From: Ananas comosus
Lineage: Eukaryota; Streptophyta; Magnoliopsida; Poales; Bromeliaceae
Direction of reading: 5' to 3'
Assembly: GCF_001540865.1 (NCBI RefSeq)
Contig: NC_033627.1
Location: forward strand, 13,939,544 to 14,003,543
Length of the DNA: 64,000 bases
Positions 13,071 to 60,814 of this stretch are shown here, in pieces (positions within the stretch are counted from its first letter, which is position 1; each line of letters begins with the position of its first letter). The notes beneath the pieces were generated by a model, which saw only the letters and a list, made by a program, of their open reading frames with translations, was not told the origin of the DNA and did not search any database. The translations under genes were made by a program, and so were the position numbers.

Positions 13071-13088
13071 CTTGGAATATATAAAGCT
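13071..13088. repeat. Target-site duplication of the LINE, left copy
   Basis: CTTGGAATATATAAAGCT, 18 bases, is repeated without mismatch at 20155-20172 on the other side of the LINE. Such a duplication is the footprint of target-primed reverse transcription. Confidence 0.95.
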
Positions 13089-13303
13089 TTTTTTTTTTTT
13101 TGAGAAAGAGGTAGCAAGCTACCTGCTTCATTCATTAAGCGAAATGAATTTAGCGTACATAATGGAGACAACTAAGGCCCCCTACCGAAACCGGAAAACA
13201 ACAAAATAATAAAAGCAGTATAGATAAGTAAACAACAACAAAAGAACAATAAAAGCAGTATAGATAAGTAAACGAAAGCCCGACTCGAGATATTAAAGAG
13301 CGG

Positions 13304-16300
13304 TTACGGGACAATTGCCTCGGTCCAAGTCTTCGTTAGCGCGACTATCCGCCCAATTGCACGGTTAGCATCCGGAGTGTCCTCATTGAAGACGATCTTG
13401 TTGCGCTCCGTCCAAACTACCCACCAGATTGCCGCCAACCGTGTGAGCCTTAACGATCTCTGTTCAGCACTATAGGAGTCCGCAGTGTCGGTCCAAAGTT
13501 GCTTAACGTCCCCTGTTCTTAAATCGCTGACCCCCGATCCATCCACGCTAATTTGGAGGTATCTAACAAAAACGCAGTCCTTGAAAAGGTGATCGCAGTT
13601 CTCAGGTGAGAATGAACAGAAAATGCAGTACTCATTCACCGGGCACCCTCTGCGTATCAGTCTATCAGCAGTAAGTAATCTCTTGCGTAGAAGGATCCAT
13701 AAGAATATTTTGATTTTGGTTGGGAGTTTTAAACTCCACAGCTTGTCGTTGGATGGTTGTCTCTGGCCAGCGTCAGTAATAAATTCGTAGAGGGATTTGA
13801 TTGTGAATATTCGGTTAGACGTCCATCGCCACCTTAATATATCCGGTGAGTCCGTCAGGCTATATCGCTGCAAGAGGCTTTTGAAAGACATGATCTGTTG
13901 TCTAGACACACTGTCGACGTTCATAGTATTGCCTCTGAGTATGAACCGCCATCTCCACCCTATTCCATTCCAGCATTGTGAGACCGTAGCCCCATTGTTA
14001 AGCACCTTGGAGTAAATTCGTGGAAACCGAGTGCACAGGGAGGTTTCTTCGATCCAAATGTCAGTCCATAGCCTACAAAAATTTCCATTGCCGAGTGTGT
14101 ACGATACGCTGCACCGAAATATTTGTCGACATGTCATTACGCTTCTCCACCACTGAGAGTGAGGTCTGAACCCTCTTCCCTCCAGTAACGGCCTTCTTCT
14201 GGTGTAATATAGCGCTCTTACCAACCTTCCCCATTGCAGCTGTGGATCTTTGAAGAAACGCCACCACCATTTAGTTAATAAAGCTATATTCATAGCTTCC
14301 ATATCTAGGATCCCCAGTCCCCCTTCTTTTTTGCTTTTACAAATTGATTTCCAGGCAATAAGGCATGACCCCCCTGAAATCTTGGCGCACCCTTTCCAAA
14401 AGAAAGCTCTTCTCAGGGCCTCTATCCGGTTCAGGACCCACTGCGGTGCTTTGAAGATAGCGAAGAAGAAAAAAGGTATATTCGAGAGCACCGAGTTGAC
14501 CAAGGTGAGTCTACCCCCGTGTGAGAGGAGTTTAGCCTTCCACCCCTCAATGCGCGCCTCAATACGATTAACGATCAGCGTCCAATCTAGTCTTCGGAGG
14601 GGTTTGATGTGTAGCGGCAATCCCAAGTAACGGAATGGCAGAATGCCAACTTTACAACCCAAAATATCTGCTAGTCCACAAGCCCTGCTAGCATTATGAC
14701 CTAGATAGTATAGTTCTGTCTTAATCATATTTATCTTAAGGCCTGATGCCCACTCGAACATTTTCCAAATAAAAAGCAGACTCCGCATAGCGGCCTTTTT
14801 AGGTTCAGCAAAAAATAAAGTGTCATCCGCGTATTGGAGGATTACAGTTTGACAATCCATTGTAGGACCAATTCCTTGGAACATGTTGTTGTTCCTCGCT
14901 GTCTCCGTGATCCTGGCCAGGCAGTCAGCCACCAAGATGAATAGGTAGGGGGATAGCGGGTCTCCTTGTCTAAGCCCCTTCCTAGTTTTCAGCCAAGCTG
15001 TCGGTGAGTCATTTACAAGAACTGCGATTTTAGCGTTGCATATACATTGCTCTATCCAGTACCACCATTTATCGCTGAATCCAATCCATCGTAGTACACT
15101 TTTCAGGAAGGTCCAACTGACATTGTCGTAAGCCTTCTCGAAATCCACCTTAATGCAAACGCACTCATTCTCAGATTTTGCGCACCAATTTAGGAGTTCA
15201 CTCGCCGTAACAAACGAGTCCGCTAGGAGTCGATCCTTCAAAAAAGCTGATTGTGCAGATGATATGATCGACGGTAAAATGAGCGAGAGTCTGTTTGCCA
15301 ATACTTTAGAGATAATCTTCTGTATTCCATTCATAAGGCATATCGGTCGGAAATCATTCACCTTACTAGCTCCTTCCTTTTTAGGGATGAGACACACATA
15401 TGAGTAGTCCGTCGGGGCCGTAAAAAGATTGTTTTCCTGGAGATCTCTGAATACATCGAAAATGTTATCCTTAACTGTATCCCAGAAATGTTGATAGAAG
15501 ATAAGAGAAAAATCGTCCGGTCCAGGTGCCTTCTCACCACCTAGTTGAAATGTAGCTTTCTTAATTTCTTCCATAGTAAAAGGGCTAGTAAGGGAGTCCG
15601 GGTCATTTAGAGAGTTCTCCCGGTACAGATCACTCCAATCTCCGCCAGTTGAAGGACCTGTTTCCTCTTGCCCGAAAAGGCGTGAGAAGGCATGGAAGAA
15701 ATAGTTTCTTTTTTGGACGTCGTTGTGGATGGGTCTGCCAGATTCATCTTCGATAAACTCTATCGCATTGCTTCGTTTCCGACCATTGGCCATCGCGTGA
15801 AAAAATTTAGTGTTCTTGTCCCCCTCCTTAAGCCAATGCTGTTTCGCTCGCGTTCTCCATAGAATTTCCTCTTCCTGAAGTATGAGATGAAGCTGAGCCT
15901 TAAGCTTTACCCTTTTATCCCGAAGCTCCTGTGACAGGGGGGACTGTTCCTCAGTCAAATCGATGCTACGGATATCGTCTTGGATGCACTTTATAGCGTT
16001 GGAAATGCTATAGAATTCCGTCTTACACCACTCTTTCATTCTGACCCTGCAGTGTCTGAGTTTTGCCGTAAGAGTGAGGATAGCCGACCTCTTGCTGGTG
16101 ATTTCATTCCACCAGACCGGTACCCTAACAGAGAAATCCTCTTTAGTGAGCCAGACCTTCTCGAACCGAAATCTCCCCGGCTTTGGGTTGGCCCCAGTAG
16201 TCAGCAGTATCGGGGTATGATCCGAGGTAATCCTCGGCAGTGCTGAGACCCTGCCGTGTGGGAAAGCTTGGTCCCATTCAGTCGACACTAGAAATCTGTC

Positions 16301-16897
16301 CAGCTTGGCCAGGGAAGGTGCGCATTGCATGTTAGACCAGGTGAAACATTGGTTGGATATGGGTTGATCAATGACCTCGAGGTTTGAAATGAGATCTGAG
16401 AATAAGGACATCGCTCTAGAACTCCAGGGACTTCCAATGCGTTCTGCTTGACTCCTTGTGAGATTAAAATCCCCACAAATGACCCAGTTGTTATTGGAGC
16501 AAAAGTCTCTCACTGAAATAAGATCAGAACAGAACTCTTCCTTCCCGTCCCAAGTTGGTGGCCCGTAGACGTTTGAGAGGAAAAAAATCTTTCCGCTGGC
16601 AACGTGCTTCAAATTAAGGGTGAGTGAGCGCTCACGCACCAAAACCTCCGAACATAAAAAAGATTTAGAATTCCACGCAGTGATTAAACCACCCGACGCC
16701 CCACAAGCAGGAATAAAATGACATCTATCGAAGTTTGAGCCACAGAAAGAGCGGAGAAACGATCTAGATACCGAATCTACTTTTGTTTCTTGAAAACAAA
16801 CTACGGGACAAAAGTGCTTAGACACGACAGTCTTTACCGCACGACGCTTGACCGGGTCGTTCAGACCCCGAACATTCCAAGAGATAATATTAAACAT
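13304..16897 (-). CDS. LINE ORF2: endonuclease and reverse transcriptase
   Basis: 1197 residues without interruption. The N-terminus (about 1-220) is an AP-like endonuclease that nicks the target: it opens with NIISWNVRGLND and has the QETKVDS, GDFNLTRS and SDHTPIL motifs. The reverse transcriptase (about 480-740) shows KVDFEKAYDNVSW (motif A), GLRQGDPLSPYLF (motif B) and YADD at 689-692 (motif C, catalytic aspartates). The C-terminus carries the plant zf-RVT region (about 1040-1120) with Cys-x-x-Cys and His/Cys residues, then the WWVVWTERNKIVF block that recurs in truncated copies across the window. No RNase H domain is seen, as in many L1 elements. The protein would bind its own RNA and copy it at the nick. 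All catalytic motifs look intact, so activity is plausible but unproven. Confidence 0.96.
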   Translation of the reverse strand: MFNIISWNVRGLNDPVKRRAVKTVVSKHFCPVVCFQETKVDSVSRSFLRSFCGSNFDRCHFIPACGASGGLITAWNSKSFLCSEVLVRERSLTLNLKHVASGKIFFLSNVYGPPTWDGKEEFCSDLISVRDFCSNNNWVICGDFNLTRSQAERIGSPWSSRAMSLFSDLISNLEVIDQPISNQCFTWSNMQCAPSLAKLDRFLVSTEWDQAFPHGRVSALPRITSDHTPILLTTGANPKPGRFRFEKVWLTKEDFSVRVPVWWNEITSKRSAILTLTAKLRHCRVRMKEWCKTEFYSISNAIKCIQDDIRSIDLTEEQSPLSQELRDKRVKLKAQLHLILQEEEILWRTRAKQHWLKEGDKNTKFFHAMANGRKRSNAIEFIEDESGRPIHNDVQKRNYFFHAFSRLFGQEETGPSTGGDWSDLYRENSLNDPDSLTSPFTMEEIKKATFQLGGEKAPGPDDFSLIFYQHFWDTVKDNIFDVFRDLQENNLFTAPTDYSYVCLIPKKEGASKVNDFRPICLMNGIQKIISKVLANRLSLILPSIISSAQSAFLKDRLLADSFVTASELLNWCAKSENECVCIKVDFEKAYDNVSWTFLKSVLRWIGFSDKWWYWIEQCICNAKIAVLVNDSPTAWLKTRKGLRQGDPLSPYLFILVADCLARITETARNNNMFQGIGPTMDCQTVILQYADDTLFFAEPKKAAMRSLLFIWKMFEWASGLKINMIKTELYYLGHNASRACGLADILGCKVGILPFRYLGLPLHIKPLRRLDWTLIVNRIEARIEGWKAKLLSHGGRLTLVNSVLSNIPFFFFAIFKAPQWVLNRIEALRRAFFWKGCAKISGGSCLIAWKSICKSKKEGGLGILDMEAMNIALLTKWWWRFFKDPQLQWGRLVRALYYTRRRPLLEGRGFRPHSQWWRSVMTCRQIFRCSVSYTLGNGNFCRLWTDIWIEETSLCTRFPRIYSKVLNNGATVSQCWNGIGWRWRFILRGNTMNVDSVSRQQIMSFKSLLQRYSLTDSPDILRWRWTSNRIFTIKSLYEFITDAGQRQPSNDKLWSLKLPTKIKIFLWILLRKRLLTADRLIRRGCPVNEYCIFCSFSPENCDHLFKDCVFVRYLQISVDGSGVSDLRTGDVKQLWTDTADSYSAEQRSLRLTRLAAIWWVVWTERNKIVFNEDTPDANRAIGRIVALTKTWTEAIVP

Positions 16898-16953
16898 CAG
16901 AAACTGCTACCCCCCAAAATATAAAACCACACCGAAACCCGCCCCTCAGCAAA

Positions 16954-19900
16954 TTATCCGCTCAACATAAACTTGTGGAGCTCCTCCGCGTCAACCTCCG
17001 AGAGCTTCACTCCGCAGCGGGCCCCCTTCGACAGCACCTTTTTTGAGCTCCATTTGCGAGCTAGTTTCGCCGAGCTAGAGCTGGCACCTTCCAGCAGGAT
17101 CGCTTTCCTACGCTTCGCCCGTTCAAGAGCCGAAATGATGGCTGGATCCCGCGCGCGAGGACTAGACCTAGTCGGTCCTATCCTGACGCTCGGGAGATAC
17201 CCGGCCCCTCCGGCCTCCTCCCCGTCACCTCCTTTCGGCGGGTTCGGGGCGGAAAGAGCTTCCGCCAGATCACGGGAACGTCCCGTGCGAAGAAGGAGGC
17301 CCATCTCGAGGGAAGCTCCGGTGCAAGAACCCATCGCAGCAGCAGCACCAGGAGAGCCGCGAGTGGCGTCGAGATCGGGGAGGCCCGTCCCGAGGGGAGC
17401 TCCGACGCAAGATCCCATTGCAGCAGTAGCACCCAGAGAACCGCGAGTGGCGTGGAGATCGGGGTTCCAAGCGGGAAGACCTCGACCGTCTCCCTCGAGT
17501 GACGTGGAGATCGGGGTTCCAAACGGGAAGACCTCGACCATCCCGAGGGGAGCTTCAGCGCAAGATCCCATTGCAGCAGCAGCACCAGGAGATCCGTTGA
17601 GGCCGCGAGTGGCGTGGAGATCGGGGTTCCAAACGGGAAGACCTCGACCGTCTCCCACACCAAGCAAGACCGGCTCAAAAGAGACCCCCGTGGGGAGCGG
17701 GCGAGAAGAGTTACCCGTACCATGGGGGGTTCCGACTTGAGCAAAGCTGAGCTCTGGGCTGTCCCTAAGAAAAAGAGGGTCTCCGAAACCGAGGAAACCG
17801 AGGAAGAAGAACCGTTGGGCCTCGTCTTGGGCCTCGTCTGCAACTGGCAGCAGTCGGTGGCCTCTACCCCAGTTGGGCCCCAAACCAAATGCTCCTACAA
17901 ATTGGCCCAAAACGCTGAGACCAACATCGAGGCCCGGTGAAAAAAAAGTTCGAGGAGGGCCCGCAAGTAACTGCAAGAATGGGTGACTGGGCCCCCACTG
18001 TGCACCCAATCCAACTCCGGGACCAGAAAATGAAACGACCAGCATTTCTGGCCCTAGCCCCAAGAAAAGTAGCTTCGTGTGTAATAAAGAAAGGGGCTGC
18101 AGCATCACAGACCAAATCCCCGGCCCCAGGCTCGAGAAGGATATTCCAATCTTAGAATAACAGGTGCCTTGATCCTCCCAGTTCTTGAAATAAATGTTAA
18201 CTCGAAAGCTAGCCTTTTCCTTAAGGTACGGTATCCAAGGCTTCCGAGACTCACACTCAGGTGTGATACATGGGGGGCGGTATGTCAACGGCCCTATGCC
18301 GAGACTGGGAGCGCCGCCTGGCAGCAGGACTTTTCGAACTCCTCCCTCGACAAGCTTCACCAGAAAGGACCCGTTGTCAGGGGGGGCGAGAGAATGAACC
18401 GTTGAGGCCACGTCAGCATCGGAACATTTTGAAACCAAACTCGTCTGTCCGCAGTTACCGGCGATCTCCGGCGGGCTCGAACTCTCCACGATCGTCGGCG
18501 GACTCAAGCGCTCCACACTCACCGGCGGACTTGAGTGCTCTTCCTCCACGAATCGCCGGAGAGGGGCGACCGGAGCATCCAGAGTCAACCCGTCCGGCAC
18601 GTACGCTGCCCACCTTCTATCCCTTATTTCCGAGGAGTTCCAGGAAGCATCGGAACTCGAAGAACCACCGGCCGAAGACCGTCTCCCCCGGATAGACCCC
18701 TCAGAGCGACGAGGTGCAACCGGGGGTCTCTGCAGCGGGTCGTGCTGATCCGTCTGATCATTGGGAGGATTGCCAGGAGCAGCTGCATCGCGTCGACCCC
18801 ACCGCTCGAGTTGGATGAGCACCGACAGCGATGAGTCCCCCACTGTTATTTCCAGGTTCTCCGGGATGTCGGAAAGATAATCCACAGAGACGAGGCAGCG
18901 ATAACCAGTGAGATCAACCATGCGAACCGAGAAGTCGTCCGCACGGATGAACCGACCGAAGCCGCCCACCAGCGCCGCTACCGTGCGTGAAGACCAGCAC
19001 TCGTACGGTAAGCTAACAAGCCGGATCCAAACATTATACGTCAGTTGAGCCCTCCGAGCACGGTCGTACGGGTTCCAAGGATAACATCTCAGACGGAGAT
19101 TGTCCAGCGAGAGTAACTCTCTGCGGATGAGTTGGTCGCTCGGCACCCACTCCGGGAGAAAGATCACGAAGTCCCTTTCGCTATACCGGGCCACGTGGAA
19201 ATCAGAGGGCAAACCACCGAAGCGGCTCGCCATTTTGTTGGCTATCGTCTCCTGGGGGAAGTGGCCGAGGGTTCGGGGTGGGAGGACATCAACGAGCATG
19301 GCATTACGTCTCCGATTTTGTCGGGCGAAAAAATCTTCCGACAGTGGGACAAAGGCACTAAGATAGGAGGGCCGGGCCCTCATCGCACGGTAGACGCTCA
19401 TCGGCAGACGATCCATGCAAGCACGTGCAATGTGCCCCGTCTTACGACACCTCAAGCACCTAATAGGAGCCTTACAGAAGGCCGCCCTGTGATCAGTATC
19501 CAAACACCTATAGCACCTCCCTTTGAAGGAGACGCTGCCAGGGGAGGTAGGCAAATGAGAAGTGTTGAAGATAGGCTTTCGACGGTTTAGGCGAGATGGC
19601 GTGACCGAGCAAGGTGTAAGGAGAGCCTCCTTGTAGCTTTTAATAAAACCAGATGAAAAGGAGGTTGGGGGCTTCTCGAGTAAGGTGTCGGATCTCCTCC
19701 AGATACGAGTCGAAGGCGTGAGGCGTGTATTGGAGGCAGGGTCAGAGTCCTCAGCTTGAGGTATAGCCTCCCGAGTTAATGCGAGTCCCGCTGCGTCCGC
19801 CCACTTCACCTTCTTGGGGAGCGATCTGCCATCAATGGTAATCTTCCCGGGGTAGGTGACCTCATTTACTCGAGCCTTCTTCAACGGAGTAGAGCTCTGG

Positions 19901-20127
19901 GTCCTCCTTTGTAGGTTAAAACCCGCTTCGCCAGCTTTCGAGATGTACTTGGATGTGGATGCTACAGAGATCCCTCGTAATGGTTCTTGCTCCTTCCTTT
20001 GAATATGGCAAAACGGTTTCCCAGTCACCTTCTTTGTCTTCACCTCCTCCGAAGCTAACTCCAGAGCCTTCTCCTTTCCCTTCTTCCTTCCATCCCCTGA
20101 CTCCAGAGCCTTCTCCTTTCCCTTCAT
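16954..20127 (-). CDS. LINE ORF1: RNA-binding protein with two zinc knuckles
   Basis: 1057 residues, long for a plant LINE ORF1. The N-terminus is basic and contains a repeated KGKEKALE block made by tandem DNA repeats at the element's 5' end. Two CCHC zinc knuckles, each C-x2-C-x4-H-x4-C, lie near residues 205-240. They are followed (about 280-470) by a DUF4283-like region with FVIFLPEWVPSD and ending near LIQLERWGRR. The C-terminal half is rich in Pro, Gly, Ser and Ala and contains imperfect repeats of about 20-35 residues around MGSC and WNPDLHATRG (DNA about 17300-17650). ORF1 proteins coat LINE RNA and act as nucleic-acid chaperones. The true start may lie beyond the element's 5' end, since the frame is open to 20154. 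The domain order (knuckles before the DUF4283-like part) deserves checking. Confidence 0.88.
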   Translation of the reverse strand: MKGKEKALESGDGRKKGKEKALELASEEVKTKKVTGKPFCHIQRKEQEPLRGISVASTSKYISKAGEAGFNLQRRTQSSTPLKKARVNEVTYPGKITIDGRSLPKKVKWADAAGLALTREAIPQAEDSDPASNTRLTPSTRIWRRSDTLLEKPPTSFSSGFIKSYKEALLTPCSVTPSRLNRRKPIFNTSHLPTSPGSVSFKGRCYRCLDTDHRAAFCKAPIRCLRCRKTGHIARACMDRLPMSVYRAMRARPSYLSAFVPLSEDFFARQNRRRNAMLVDVLPPRTLGHFPQETIANKMASRFGGLPSDFHVARYSERDFVIFLPEWVPSDQLIRRELLSLDNLRLRCYPWNPYDRARRAQLTYNVWIRLVSLPYECWSSRTVAALVGGFGRFIRADDFSVRMVDLTGYRCLVSVDYLSDIPENLEITVGDSSLSVLIQLERWGRRDAAAPGNPPNDQTDQHDPLQRPPVAPRRSEGSIRGRRSSAGGSSSSDASWNSSEIRDRRWAAYVPDGLTLDAPVAPLRRFVEEEHSSPPVSVERLSPPTIVESSSPPEIAGNCGQTSLVSKCSDADVASTVHSLAPPDNGSFLVKLVEGGVRKVLLPGGAPSLGIGPLTYRPPCITPECESRKPWIPYLKEKASFRVNIYFKNWEDQGTCYSKIGISFSSLGPGIWSVMLQPLSLLHTKLLFLGLGPEMLVVSFSGPGVGLGAQWGPSHPFLQLLAGPPRTFFSPGLDVGLSVLGQFVGAFGLGPNWGRGHRLLPVADEAQDEAQRFFFLGFLGFGDPLFLRDSPELSFAQVGTPHGTGNSSRPLPTGVSFEPVLLGVGDGRGLPVWNPDLHATRGLNGSPGAAAAMGSCAEAPLGMVEVFPFGTPISTSLEGDGRGLPAWNPDLHATRGSLGATAAMGSCVGAPLGTGLPDLDATRGSPGAAAAMGSCTGASLEMGLLLRTGRSRDLAEALSAPNPPKGGDGEEAGGAGYLPSVRIGPTRSSPRARDPAIISALERAKRRKAILLEGASSSSAKLARKWSSKKVLSKGARCGVKLSEVDAEELHKFMLSG

Positions 20128-20157
20128 TCCTTCCCCTGACTCCAGAGCCTTCTCCTT
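20058..20157. repeat. Tandem reiteration at the LINE 5' end
   Basis: Three head-to-tail units start with ACTCCAGAGCCTTCTCCTT: 20058-20099 (42 bp), 20100-20138 (39 bp) and a partial unit 20139-20157. The last unit's final CTT overlaps the first three bases of the target-site duplication, a 3-base microhomology at the 5' junction. The units encode the repeated KEKALE block of ORF1. Confidence 0.9.
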
Positions 20158-20172
20158 GGAATATATAAAGCT
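20155..20172. repeat. Target-site duplication of the LINE, right copy
   Basis: Identical to 13071-13088; it marks the 5' junction of the LINE. Confidence 0.95.
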
Positions 20173-20316
20173 AATGCTTTATTTCGTTCAGTTGGAGTTA
20201 AGCTTTATGTTCCACATGAAAGAAGCAATCAAAAAAGCAAGCCAAACTGCATGGTTTATTACCTGGAACATCATAGGTCTCATGCTCCCTGGAAATTAAT
20301 AGTTTGGCAAATATAC

Positions 20317-20474
20317 TGACCGTTCCTAGAGTAAGTGACAAAGAATTTGGTGGTCGGTATCCGAGATCCCAAGTTCGAATCTTAGTTGATTTATATTTTC
20401 AGCTAAGTTTATTTCTAAATGAAATAAACGAAACGGGTATCGTGCTACCTATCTCTCAAAAAAAAAAAAGAAAA
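20317..20474 (+). mobile_element. tRNA-like SINE with LINE-type 3' tail
   Basis: A 158-bp element between 11-bp direct repeats GGCAAATATAC (20306-20316 and 20475-20485). The head has an A-box-like stretch (AGTAAGTGACAAAG) and a B-box-like stretch (AAGTTCGAATCTTA), the internal polymerase III promoter of tRNA-derived SINEs. The 3' part ends GTGCTACCTATCTCTC plus poly(A), very like the end of the LINE at 13089-20154. The copy at 60662-60814 aligns along its whole length. The element is absent from the matching position upstream of the second ankyrin-PGG gene. Confidence 0.85.
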
Positions 20475-32443: not shown

Positions 32444-32454
32444 ATATCAAAATT

Positions 32455-32848
32455 TTTTTTTGAGAAAGAGATAGCAAACTATCTGTTACATTCATTAAGC
32501 AAAATGAACTAAGCATACAGTGTGGAAGCAGCTAGGACCTCCTGGGTAAGCCAGAAAAAAGACAAAAACAAAACAAAAACAAAAACAAAGCCGAGTTATT
32601 TATTGTCACTCGGCTTGGAGTGTGAAGGCGTGAAGGTGAAGGCGTTTTTTTTCCTGAGCTGTCAAGCTTTGTTGATGCTTCTAATTGTGTCTATCTGTAT
32701 CTAATCGCTTGTCGACTCTCATCGCGACTTTGTCGCATCTGTAAATCCTTTCGATCCTTAATCTAAAACAAATAGGGTATATCCCTGTTTACTCAAAAAA
32801 AAAAAAACAAAAAAGCCGAGTTGAGATGAAAAGTACAGGAGAGAATTG
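32455..32848 (-). mobile_element. 5'-truncated LINE fragment, carries a nested insertion
   Basis: Flanked by ATATCAAAATT at 32444-32454 and 32849-32859. The left edge is the poly-T and family tail (GAGAAAGAGATAGCAAACTA), so it is in minus orientation. It is interrupted at 32598-32811 by a second LINE end; without that, only about 180 bases of the 3' end were inserted. Confidence 0.85.
32598..32811 (+). mobile_element. LINE 3' end of a different family, nested inside the fragment at 32455
   Basis: It ends GGGTATATCCCTGTTTACTC followed by poly(A), a different 3' end from the main LINE family. It is flanked by AAAGCCGAGTT at 32587-32597 and 32812-32822. Plus orientation, opposite to its host fragment. 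Confidence 0.8.
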
Positions 32849-34915: not shown

Positions 34916-34929
34916 TATTATGCAAAATT

Positions 34930-35179
34930 TTTTTTAGAAAAGGTAGCATGCTATCGCTTTACTTAATAAGGATATGAACTGTGCTACAAAGTGAGGCAGC
35001 TAGGTCTCGGCAAAAAAAAAAAAAAGAAAAAAGAAGGCAAGAGCCCATGTATCTCTTAGAGAGCGGGATTCAAAAGCTAGAACATTCACAGCGCGTCTGA
35101 TATTCTCAAAAATTCTCTTGTTCCGGTCGTTTCAGCTAGACAGTCCACCACGTTCTAGCTAGACAGTCCACCACGTAGA
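34930..35179 (-). mobile_element. 250-bp LINE fragment with 14-bp target duplication
   Basis: Flanked by TATTATGCAAAATT at 34916-34929 and 35180-35193. It begins with poly-T and the tail GGTAGCATGCTATC. Its 5' (right) end carries two tandem copies of a 22-base unit (about 35135-35178, CTAGACAGTCCACCACGT each). Confidence 0.88.
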
Positions 35180-35483
35180 TATTATGCAAAATTATTTTTT
35201 TAGTAACCTACCAGTTTTATTTATTTTTTCAGAAATAAATTATATAAAATTATGAAGCATTTAGGCTTTGAAATTAAAACTTCGTCTATCAACATTAATC
35301 CTTTAGCCAGCTTAGGTACATACGATTTGTATTATTATGCAAATTTTTAATTTTGGTTTTTGGATAGTTTTTGACACTCTCAGGGTCTCCTAAGGTTGTG
35401 GTTAATTAATAAATAGTTTGGCCTAGCATGGATGTAAAATTGAATCAAATGCATTGGCTAGTGTTAAACATCAATTTGTTAGG

Positions 35484-35994
35484 TTTTTTTTTGAGAAATA
35501 GGTAGCAAGCTACCTGCTTCATTCATTAAATAAAATGAACTAGGCATATATGATGGAAGCAACTAGGGCCTCCTAACCAAGCCGACAAAATAGAAAAGCA
35601 AGAAAAAAGGCGAAAAACAGGTCCGTAAAACGGGAAGCGTAAAACCTAACAAAACAGAGGAAAACAAGGAAAACATGGGTAAAAGGGCGTAGTGAATGAG
35701 ACTGAAGTTATATCTCAGATTCAGATAACGCATGTCCAGTTTTTGATCAGAGCGCCGACTCGTTCCAGAGCCCGGGAGGCGTTGGGAGACCCATTGCAGA
35801 AGATGATCCTGTTTCGCTCCGTCCAAACGACCCACCAGATTGCCGCTAGCTGGGTTAGACTGTTCGATCTGTCCAAATGACCCACCAGATTGCCGCTAGC
35901 TCTATCCAAACGACCCACCAGATTGCCGCTAGCTCCATCCAAACGACCCACCAGATTGCCGCTAGCTGGGTTAGCTGGGTTAGACTGTTCGATC
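35484..35994 (-). mobile_element. 511-bp LINE fragment with target duplication and reiterated 5' end
   Basis: Flanked by TCAATTTGTTAGG (35471-35483 and 35995-36007). Minus orientation. It encodes the last part of ORF2 (AAIWWVVWTERNRIIFCNG, about 35721-35870). Its 5' end has four tandem copies of a roughly 31-50-bp unit containing ACCCACCAGATTGCCGCTAG (35820-35990). Not functional. Confidence 0.92.
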
Positions 35995-36010
35995 TCAATT
36001 TGTTAGGTTT

Positions 36011-60647: not shown

Positions 60648-60661
60648 TGCGTTTATATTTT

Positions 60662-60814
60662 TTTTTTGAGAGATAAGTAGCACGCTATCTGCTTCATTTA
60701 TTTCATTTATAAATAAACTTAGCTGAAAATGTGAATCAATTAGGATTCGAATTTGGGTTCTCGGGTACCAACCACCAAATTCTTTGCCACTTGCTATAGG
60801 AATGGTCGGTCCCC
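60662..60814 (-). mobile_element. tRNA-like SINE with LINE-type 3' tail, best copy
   Basis: Flanked by a 14-bp duplication TGCGTTTATATTTT (60648-60661 and 60815-60828). In minus orientation it reads ATTCCTATAGCAAGTGGC (A-box-like), AATTCGAATCCTA (B-box-like), then AATGAAGCAGATAGCGTGCT and ATCTCTC plus poly(A). The last 45 bases closely follow the LINE 3' end at 13089-13140. Same family as 20317-20474. Confidence 0.9.

Follow-up and report, generated by a model that had tools for sequence, protein, structure and literature searches.

Tandem repeats at the 5' junctions of three pineapple LINE copies: two probable products of insertion and one mostly inherited array

Within a 64,000-nucleotide stretch of the pineapple assembly (C7:13939544-14003543; hereafter the window), three LINE copies carry tandem repeats where their 5' ends meet the target. 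Were these repeats made as each copy inserted, or were they already present in the elements from which the copies came? The sequence-only reading had placed all three arrays at 5' junctions and ascribed them to a reverse transcriptase that slips or re-primes at the end of synthesis. The placement is confirmed: the arrays lie 0-3 bp from junctions marked by target duplications of 14-18 bp. The origin turned out to differ between copies. Labels such as C20, C13, C5 and the L-numbers below refer to places elsewhere in the assembly.

The longest of the three is a full LINE on the minus strand (13089-20154; 7,066 bp between target duplications), with its 3' poly(A) end at 13089 and its 5' end at 20154. 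It is a plant L1-type element: ORF2 (P0001; 13304-16897, minus strand; 1197 aa) encodes an APE-type endonuclease, a reverse transcriptase and a zinc-binding domain, recognized in Pfam as Exo_endo_phos (PF03372), RVT_1 (PF00078) and zf-RVT (PF13966), and ORF1 (16954-20127, minus strand; 1057 aa) contains DUF4283. An identical pair of 18 bp, CTTGGAATATATAAAGCT, flanks it at 13071-13088 (3' end) and 20155-20172 (5' end). The other two copies, both also on the minus strand, are a 5'-truncated LINE that we call the 511-bp copy (35487-35994), flanked by the 16-bp duplication TCAATTTGTTAGGTTT (35471-35486 and 35995-36010), and a 250-bp copy of another subfamily (34930-35179), flanked by the 14-bp duplication TATTATGCAAAATT (34916-34929 and 35180-35193). 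Duplications of 18, 16 and 14 bp are in the L1 range, and a T run on the plus strand, corresponding to the poly(A) tail, adjoins them. The full LINE also holds interior tandem arrays at 17295-17656, 18462-18531 and 13197-13273; C20 has a shorter version of the 84-bp array region of ORF1, and arrays resembling the 40-bp and 27-bp ones occur in the full LINE and C20 alike.

The reiterated 5' end of the 511-bp copy occupies 35816-35994 (minus strand) and ends 0 bp from the junction. Four units had been described and four are present, starting at 35822, 35872, 35905 and 35938; the spacing of the starts is 50, 33 and 33 bp, a further 9-bp slip lies within the last unit, and the distance between the duplications is 508 bp rather than 511. 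In total, about 125 bp is extra. Tandem Repeats Finder (TRF) reported a 33-bp array at 35868-35967. The four 33-bp cores differ at two CpG sites only, which suggests that the units were identical at birth, and the first and last pass of the array end at the same GATC. In the 250-bp copy the two reported units were found by direct scan, the repeat being absent from the TRF output. They are 23 bp long, not 22, bounded by CGT and 21/23 identical (35131-35153 and 35154-35176, minus strand), and they end 3 bp short of the target duplication.

A repeat made at insertion would appear as extra sequence between the truncated element and its target duplication, missing from relatives that extend further 5'. 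Both short copies show this pattern. For the 511-bp copy we had 44 matches, with 40 of 1606 candidates scored. Among the matches listed, 25 places reach query position 386-387, where the first pass ends (window ~35867-35870). Two of these 25, L055 and L056, look like one insertion counted twice. Of the 25 places among the matches listed, 22 continue 5' over the next 120 bp in LINE sequence common to other relatives, and 21 of those 22 contain no second unit within 300 bp. The exception, L052, repeats the unit region at a distance of 157 bp, over 87 bp and at 86% identity, in the interior of the element. The terminal units of the 511-bp copy thus look private, amounting to ~125 bp without the same arrangement in the relatives examined. 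For the 250-bp copy, seven inspected relatives (L015-L019, L023 and L024; 71-78% identity) align with it as far as the end of the first unit and then run into other sequence; the outer unit was found in none of these 7 relatives that run past its point, and it too looks private. The remaining matches stop earlier and are uninformative on the outer unit.

We also looked at the joints between successive passes, scoring each with the first pass as template; letters restored at CpG sites are inferred. In the 511-bp copy, microhomology where pass 1 meets pass 2 amounts to 0 bp as read and to 2 bp (TC) with CpG restored. At the 33-bp joints it is 3 bp (GCT), again after CpG restoration, and at the 9-bp slip it is 3 bp (TAG) with the letters as they stand. 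The joint of the 250-bp copy has 3 bp (CGT) when first-unit letters are used, two bases differing as read. Only one of the four joint types, the 9-bp slip, therefore has microhomology as read; the rest need CpG restoration or first-unit letters. Among ordinary truncated copies, 9 of 22 have at least 2 bp of junction microhomology, where chance predicts 15.6% (P=0.004); the native sequence was taken from 1 to 9 relatives per copy. Microhomology is above chance at ordinary 5' junctions, as in annealing-type 5' joining.

The reading we favor is that the 511-bp and 250-bp arrays probably arose in the course of insertion, the end of the element being copied again after priming by microhomology. First-strand synthesis, begun at the nicked target, would halt early, leaving a 5' truncation. 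Before joining the target, the last 2-3 bases of the loose cDNA end would pair a few dozen bases back on the LINE template, and the stretch thus paired would be copied once more, in a cycle that may repeat. Finally, the cDNA end would pair with the free strand of the target and the gap would be sealed. The copying enzyme may be the LINE reverse transcriptase or a Pol theta-like host polymerase, and that the growing end is cDNA is likewise part of the model. For these two copies the slip or re-priming proposed by the sequence-only reading thus fits: longer relatives lack the units, the arrays stop 0 and 3 bp from the junction, and the joints are compatible with 2-3 bp of microhomology, mostly with reconstructed letters. 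The junction positions, the target duplications and the terminal units missing from relatives are read directly; the short-homology joints are so only in part. Points against this reading include the origin of both cases in the very window that drew attention to them, and the dependence of most of the joint microhomology on restored or first-unit letters.

A variant that overlaps with this explanation, and to which we give a real though smaller chance, is that a host Pol theta-like polymerase, not the LINE reverse transcriptase, re-copied the end during end joining, as in templated insertion. Published work gives it some weight. Templated insertions are reported as frequent in plants, up to ~35% in Arabidopsis, and plants are without HELQ, the loss of which in worms gives more iterative insertions (PMC12426944); at T-DNA junctions, filler sequences can be traced to each of the two partners (PMC10923293). 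One truncated copy elsewhere, L042, mixes target and LINE pieces. Its junction filler of 33-36 nt runs from the LINE into 24 nt matching the start of its own right flank, then ~10 nt from further right, then ~9-11 nt of LINE, and then the target duplication, the last two pieces being assigned by eye. This order shows that, in this genome, copying at a 5' junction can pass from a LINE template to the target and back. Filler pieces from both partners occur in L042 only; the 511-bp and 250-bp arrays consist of LINE-derived pieces only.

Other evidence sits less well with the host polymerase. Templated insertions are reported to be generally shorter than 25 bp (PMC12426944), against ~125 bp gained by the 511-bp copy, and human ORF2p is itself described as jumping templates and copying DNA (PMC10830420). 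The return of L042 to LINE sequence after target DNA is easily read as a cDNA end that resumes on LINE RNA. The remaining three of the 25 places (L048, L059 and L061, the last two with their own target duplications) end within ~8 bp of the first-pass stop of the 511-bp copy, as expected from a stalling reverse transcriptase or broken RNA. Because these three are truncated at nearly the same point, the stop, at a CGATC, seems to be a recurrent halt point of synthesis, possibly a stall or RNA-cleavage site. The return in L042, like the stop point common to four copies, is consistent with cDNA being extended on LINE RNA; a host polymerase acting on DNA strands could yield the same products.

A second alternative is that the arrays were inherited, the repeats being already present in the source elements. 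For the full LINE this is largely true. Its array was correctly described as units of 42, 39 and a partial 19 bp at 20058-20157, where TRF reported an array with a 39-bp period: unit A (20058-20099), unit B (20100-20138) and a partial unit at the 5' end of the element (20139-20157), the last 3 bp of which overlap the target duplication (all minus strand). The first ATG of ORF1 lies within the array, which is translated in frame (KGKEKALE twice). A search with the 5' 395 bp of the element found three places: the element itself, C20 (93%) and C13 (67%). C20, the closest full copy, has its own 14-bp target duplication, GCCAACAATTTTTC, and extends 24-27 bp further 5' than the window copy. At 24-27 bp inside its own 5' end it carries unit A beside a partial unit of 16-17 bp, and both form the start of its ORF1. 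The extra sequence of the full LINE therefore does have a counterpart in a longer relative, and most of the array is there. Unit B is absent from C20. Two substitutions and a 3-bp indel (counted by eye) separate it from unit A. Because this divergence is found in an element with an identical 18-bp target duplication and two open ORFs, unit B is probably old.

Repetition is also found more widely at this end of the protein. C13 has its own short repeats of a GKEK-like motif close to its ORF1 start, and the motif occurs at least twice in the first 130 residues of 6 of 25 ORF1 relatives. P0003, which may be the same insertion in another variety, has two motifs, as in the window ORF1, and P0004 has one. 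Of the ORF1 relatives with a species name, most belong to Ananas comosus. To judge from these comparisons, the array of the full LINE is mostly an inherited trait of the ORF1 start, separate from the 511-bp and 250-bp arrays. A single cause for all three arrays was therefore rejected, and re-priming at insertion is largely refuted for the full LINE, its longer relative already holding most of the array. A far-fetched extension of the preferred reading is that end re-copying renews the repeated ORF1 start. The ORF of C20 starts ~30 nt or less from the 5' end of the element, so an in-frame end reiteration in a full-length insert would add a KGKEK-like unit to the protein each time, and retrotransposition would in itself change the number of units; the window copy exceeds its sister C20 by one in-frame unit.

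For the two short copies, inheritance appears unlikely. The sequence-only reading had named repeats in longer copies as the mark of an inherited array; such repeats are largely what C20 shows for the full LINE, and they are not what the relatives of the other two show. Only one unit is present in 21 of 22 relatives of the 511-bp copy (among the matches listed) and 7 of 7 relatives of the 250-bp copy that pass the relevant point, and the full LINE has a single counterpart of the 511-bp unit, at 13399-13435 (minus strand). L052, with a doubled unit region inside a longer copy, speaks for inheritance; its repeat has another period (157 bp), is older and is arranged differently from the terminal array, and it indicates that re-copying is not necessarily confined to the terminus. 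Among the matches listed, the relative closest to the 511-bp copy is 88% identical, which strictly leaves room for an array-bearing source outside the sample.

How general is re-copying at the 5' end? Searches with LINE 3' ends gave 95 + 41 = 136 overlapping hits, SINEs and multi-locus places included, which we reduced by hand to 30 copies bounded by target duplications: the three in the window, C20 and 26 truncated copies elsewhere. This is a small, hand-picked sample, and its choice was not blind, some 5' ends having already been seen. We dropped hits lacking a target duplication that passed the score cut, SINE copies, and L014 and L044, which are duplicate loci of window copies. Also dropped were copies with low-complexity, A+T-rich or T-rich duplications (L018, L023, L025 minus, L028, L065, L070, L080, L106, L111 and those at window 12271, 32453 and 34199) and copies with doubtful boundaries (L040 and L041 at 1501). 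For the copy at window 32453 a better duplication, ATATCAAAATT, exists, yet an insertion is nested inside it, and it was left out.

Among the 26 truncated copies outside the window, 22 are plain joins with homology to relatives up to the junction. For the other four, relatives do not extend to the junction: L042, which has the filler, L055, with its telomere-like end, and L083 and L110, which are uninformative through low complexity or too small a number of relatives. None of the 26 shows a convincing terminal tandem array, and they do not support reiteration as a general habit of the family. Overall, we count two probable insertion-made reiterations and one mostly inherited repeat, an outcome that is probably rare rather than typical. 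The finding is post hoc, the window arrays having been noticed for their repeats.

DNA slippage or unequal crossing-over after insertion, a third alternative, is improbable, though 33-bp units with the same breakpoints could be a later expansion and other arrays do lie inside elements: in the interior of full copies, in L052 (imperfect, 157 bp apart) and, as A-rich arrays, in L073 and L088. The edges of the two terminal arrays are 0 and 3 bp from the insertion boundary, and slippage need not respect a junction. We scanned 28 truncated copies bounded by target duplications (13,238 bp) for exact, non-A-rich direct repeats of at least 15 bp and found them in the 511-bp copy, the 250-bp copy and an ACT microsatellite in L082, and nowhere else; the scan is blind to imperfect repeats such as that of L052 (87 bp, 86%). 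TRF reported A-rich arrays in L073, L083 and L088, of which that in L083 lies near the end and was judged not convincing. Genomic flanks were useless as a control, giving 338 hits in 72,000 bases because microsatellites were counted at many periods. Chance as the source of the two arrays was rejected, the scan of 28 copies having given only these and the ACT microsatellite.

The best reading is thus annealing-type 5' joining with re-copying, known in outline from vertebrate LINEs and plant break repair. In vertebrate cells, truncated inserts of some LINEs are reported to join mostly by microhomology or extra nucleotides, about half of truncated human L1 inserts in DT40 join directly (PMC4245944), and a large fraction of the 5' extra nucleotides derives from flanking sequence (PMC4245944; PMC4760211). 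The 5' EX products of this annealing pathway (ZfL2, Nimb-2, and human L1 in DT40 and HeLa; PMC4245944, PMC4760211) are like those described here in that extra bases from flanking LINE or genomic sequence lie between the truncated end and the target, and their microhomology joins resemble those of our other truncated copies. Unlike them, the present cases are tandem repeats of the LINE end, in one case of ~125 bp, in a plant, and are read from copies fixed in a genome, not from assayed insertions. Templated insertions and fillers occur in plants (PMC12426944, PMC10923293), and those attributed to Pol theta share short-homology priming, iterative copying and, as in L042, pieces from two partners; in contrast, the 511-bp copy has a longer insertion than is usual for them, and ours are read from sequence alone. 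Template jumping by non-LTR reverse transcriptases (R2, and human ORF2p; PMC10830420, PMC7617806) is similar in that cDNA synthesis continues on a further template. As described there, R2 and ORF2p jumps join copies of whole templates, whereas in the present arrays synthesis would return by a few dozen bases, in a way compatible with short homology. R1/R2 and L1 junctions are treated in PMC2718515, PMC2912911 and PMC11331408. Among titles and the beginnings of abstracts, in a coverage that mostly omits subscription journals, we found no paper on tandem 5' ends of plant LINEs.

Much of the data considered here on how LINE 5' ends join the target was obtained in animal cell lines. In plants, fixed copies whose 5' ends are private and templated make this joining readable from genomes, in a host rich in templated fillers, and existing mutants allow a direct test. 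Terminal LINE repeats need comparison with longer relatives before they are called insertion products.

A SINE family with a LINE 3' tail is also present in the window, at 20311-20473 (plus strand; bounds by eye) and 60655-60802 (minus strand). Ten SINE copies of this kind bounded by target duplications (140-200 bp; nine elsewhere and one in the window) share the place of their 5' end within ~3 bp; they were picked by that length, so SINEs with long arrays would be missed and the control is weak. L055 (C5:866717) and L056 (C5:905902), 39 kb apart with the same flank, are apparently one insertion present twice, by local duplication or as an assembly duplicate. The 5' end of L055 before its target duplication is telomere-like, CCCTAAACCCTAAAC; its relatives except the duplicate L056 stop 12 bp before the junction, and it also contains one 11-bp repeat of element sequence. 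Finally, a plus-strand insertion at 32598-32811, left out of the evidence above, is nested in the LINE fragment at 32453, with flanks AAAGCCGAGTT at 32587-32597 and 32812-32822; its 5' end, an inverted part-copy of the duplication (ACTCGGCTT) together with a GTGAAGGC repeat, looked like a complex 5' end.
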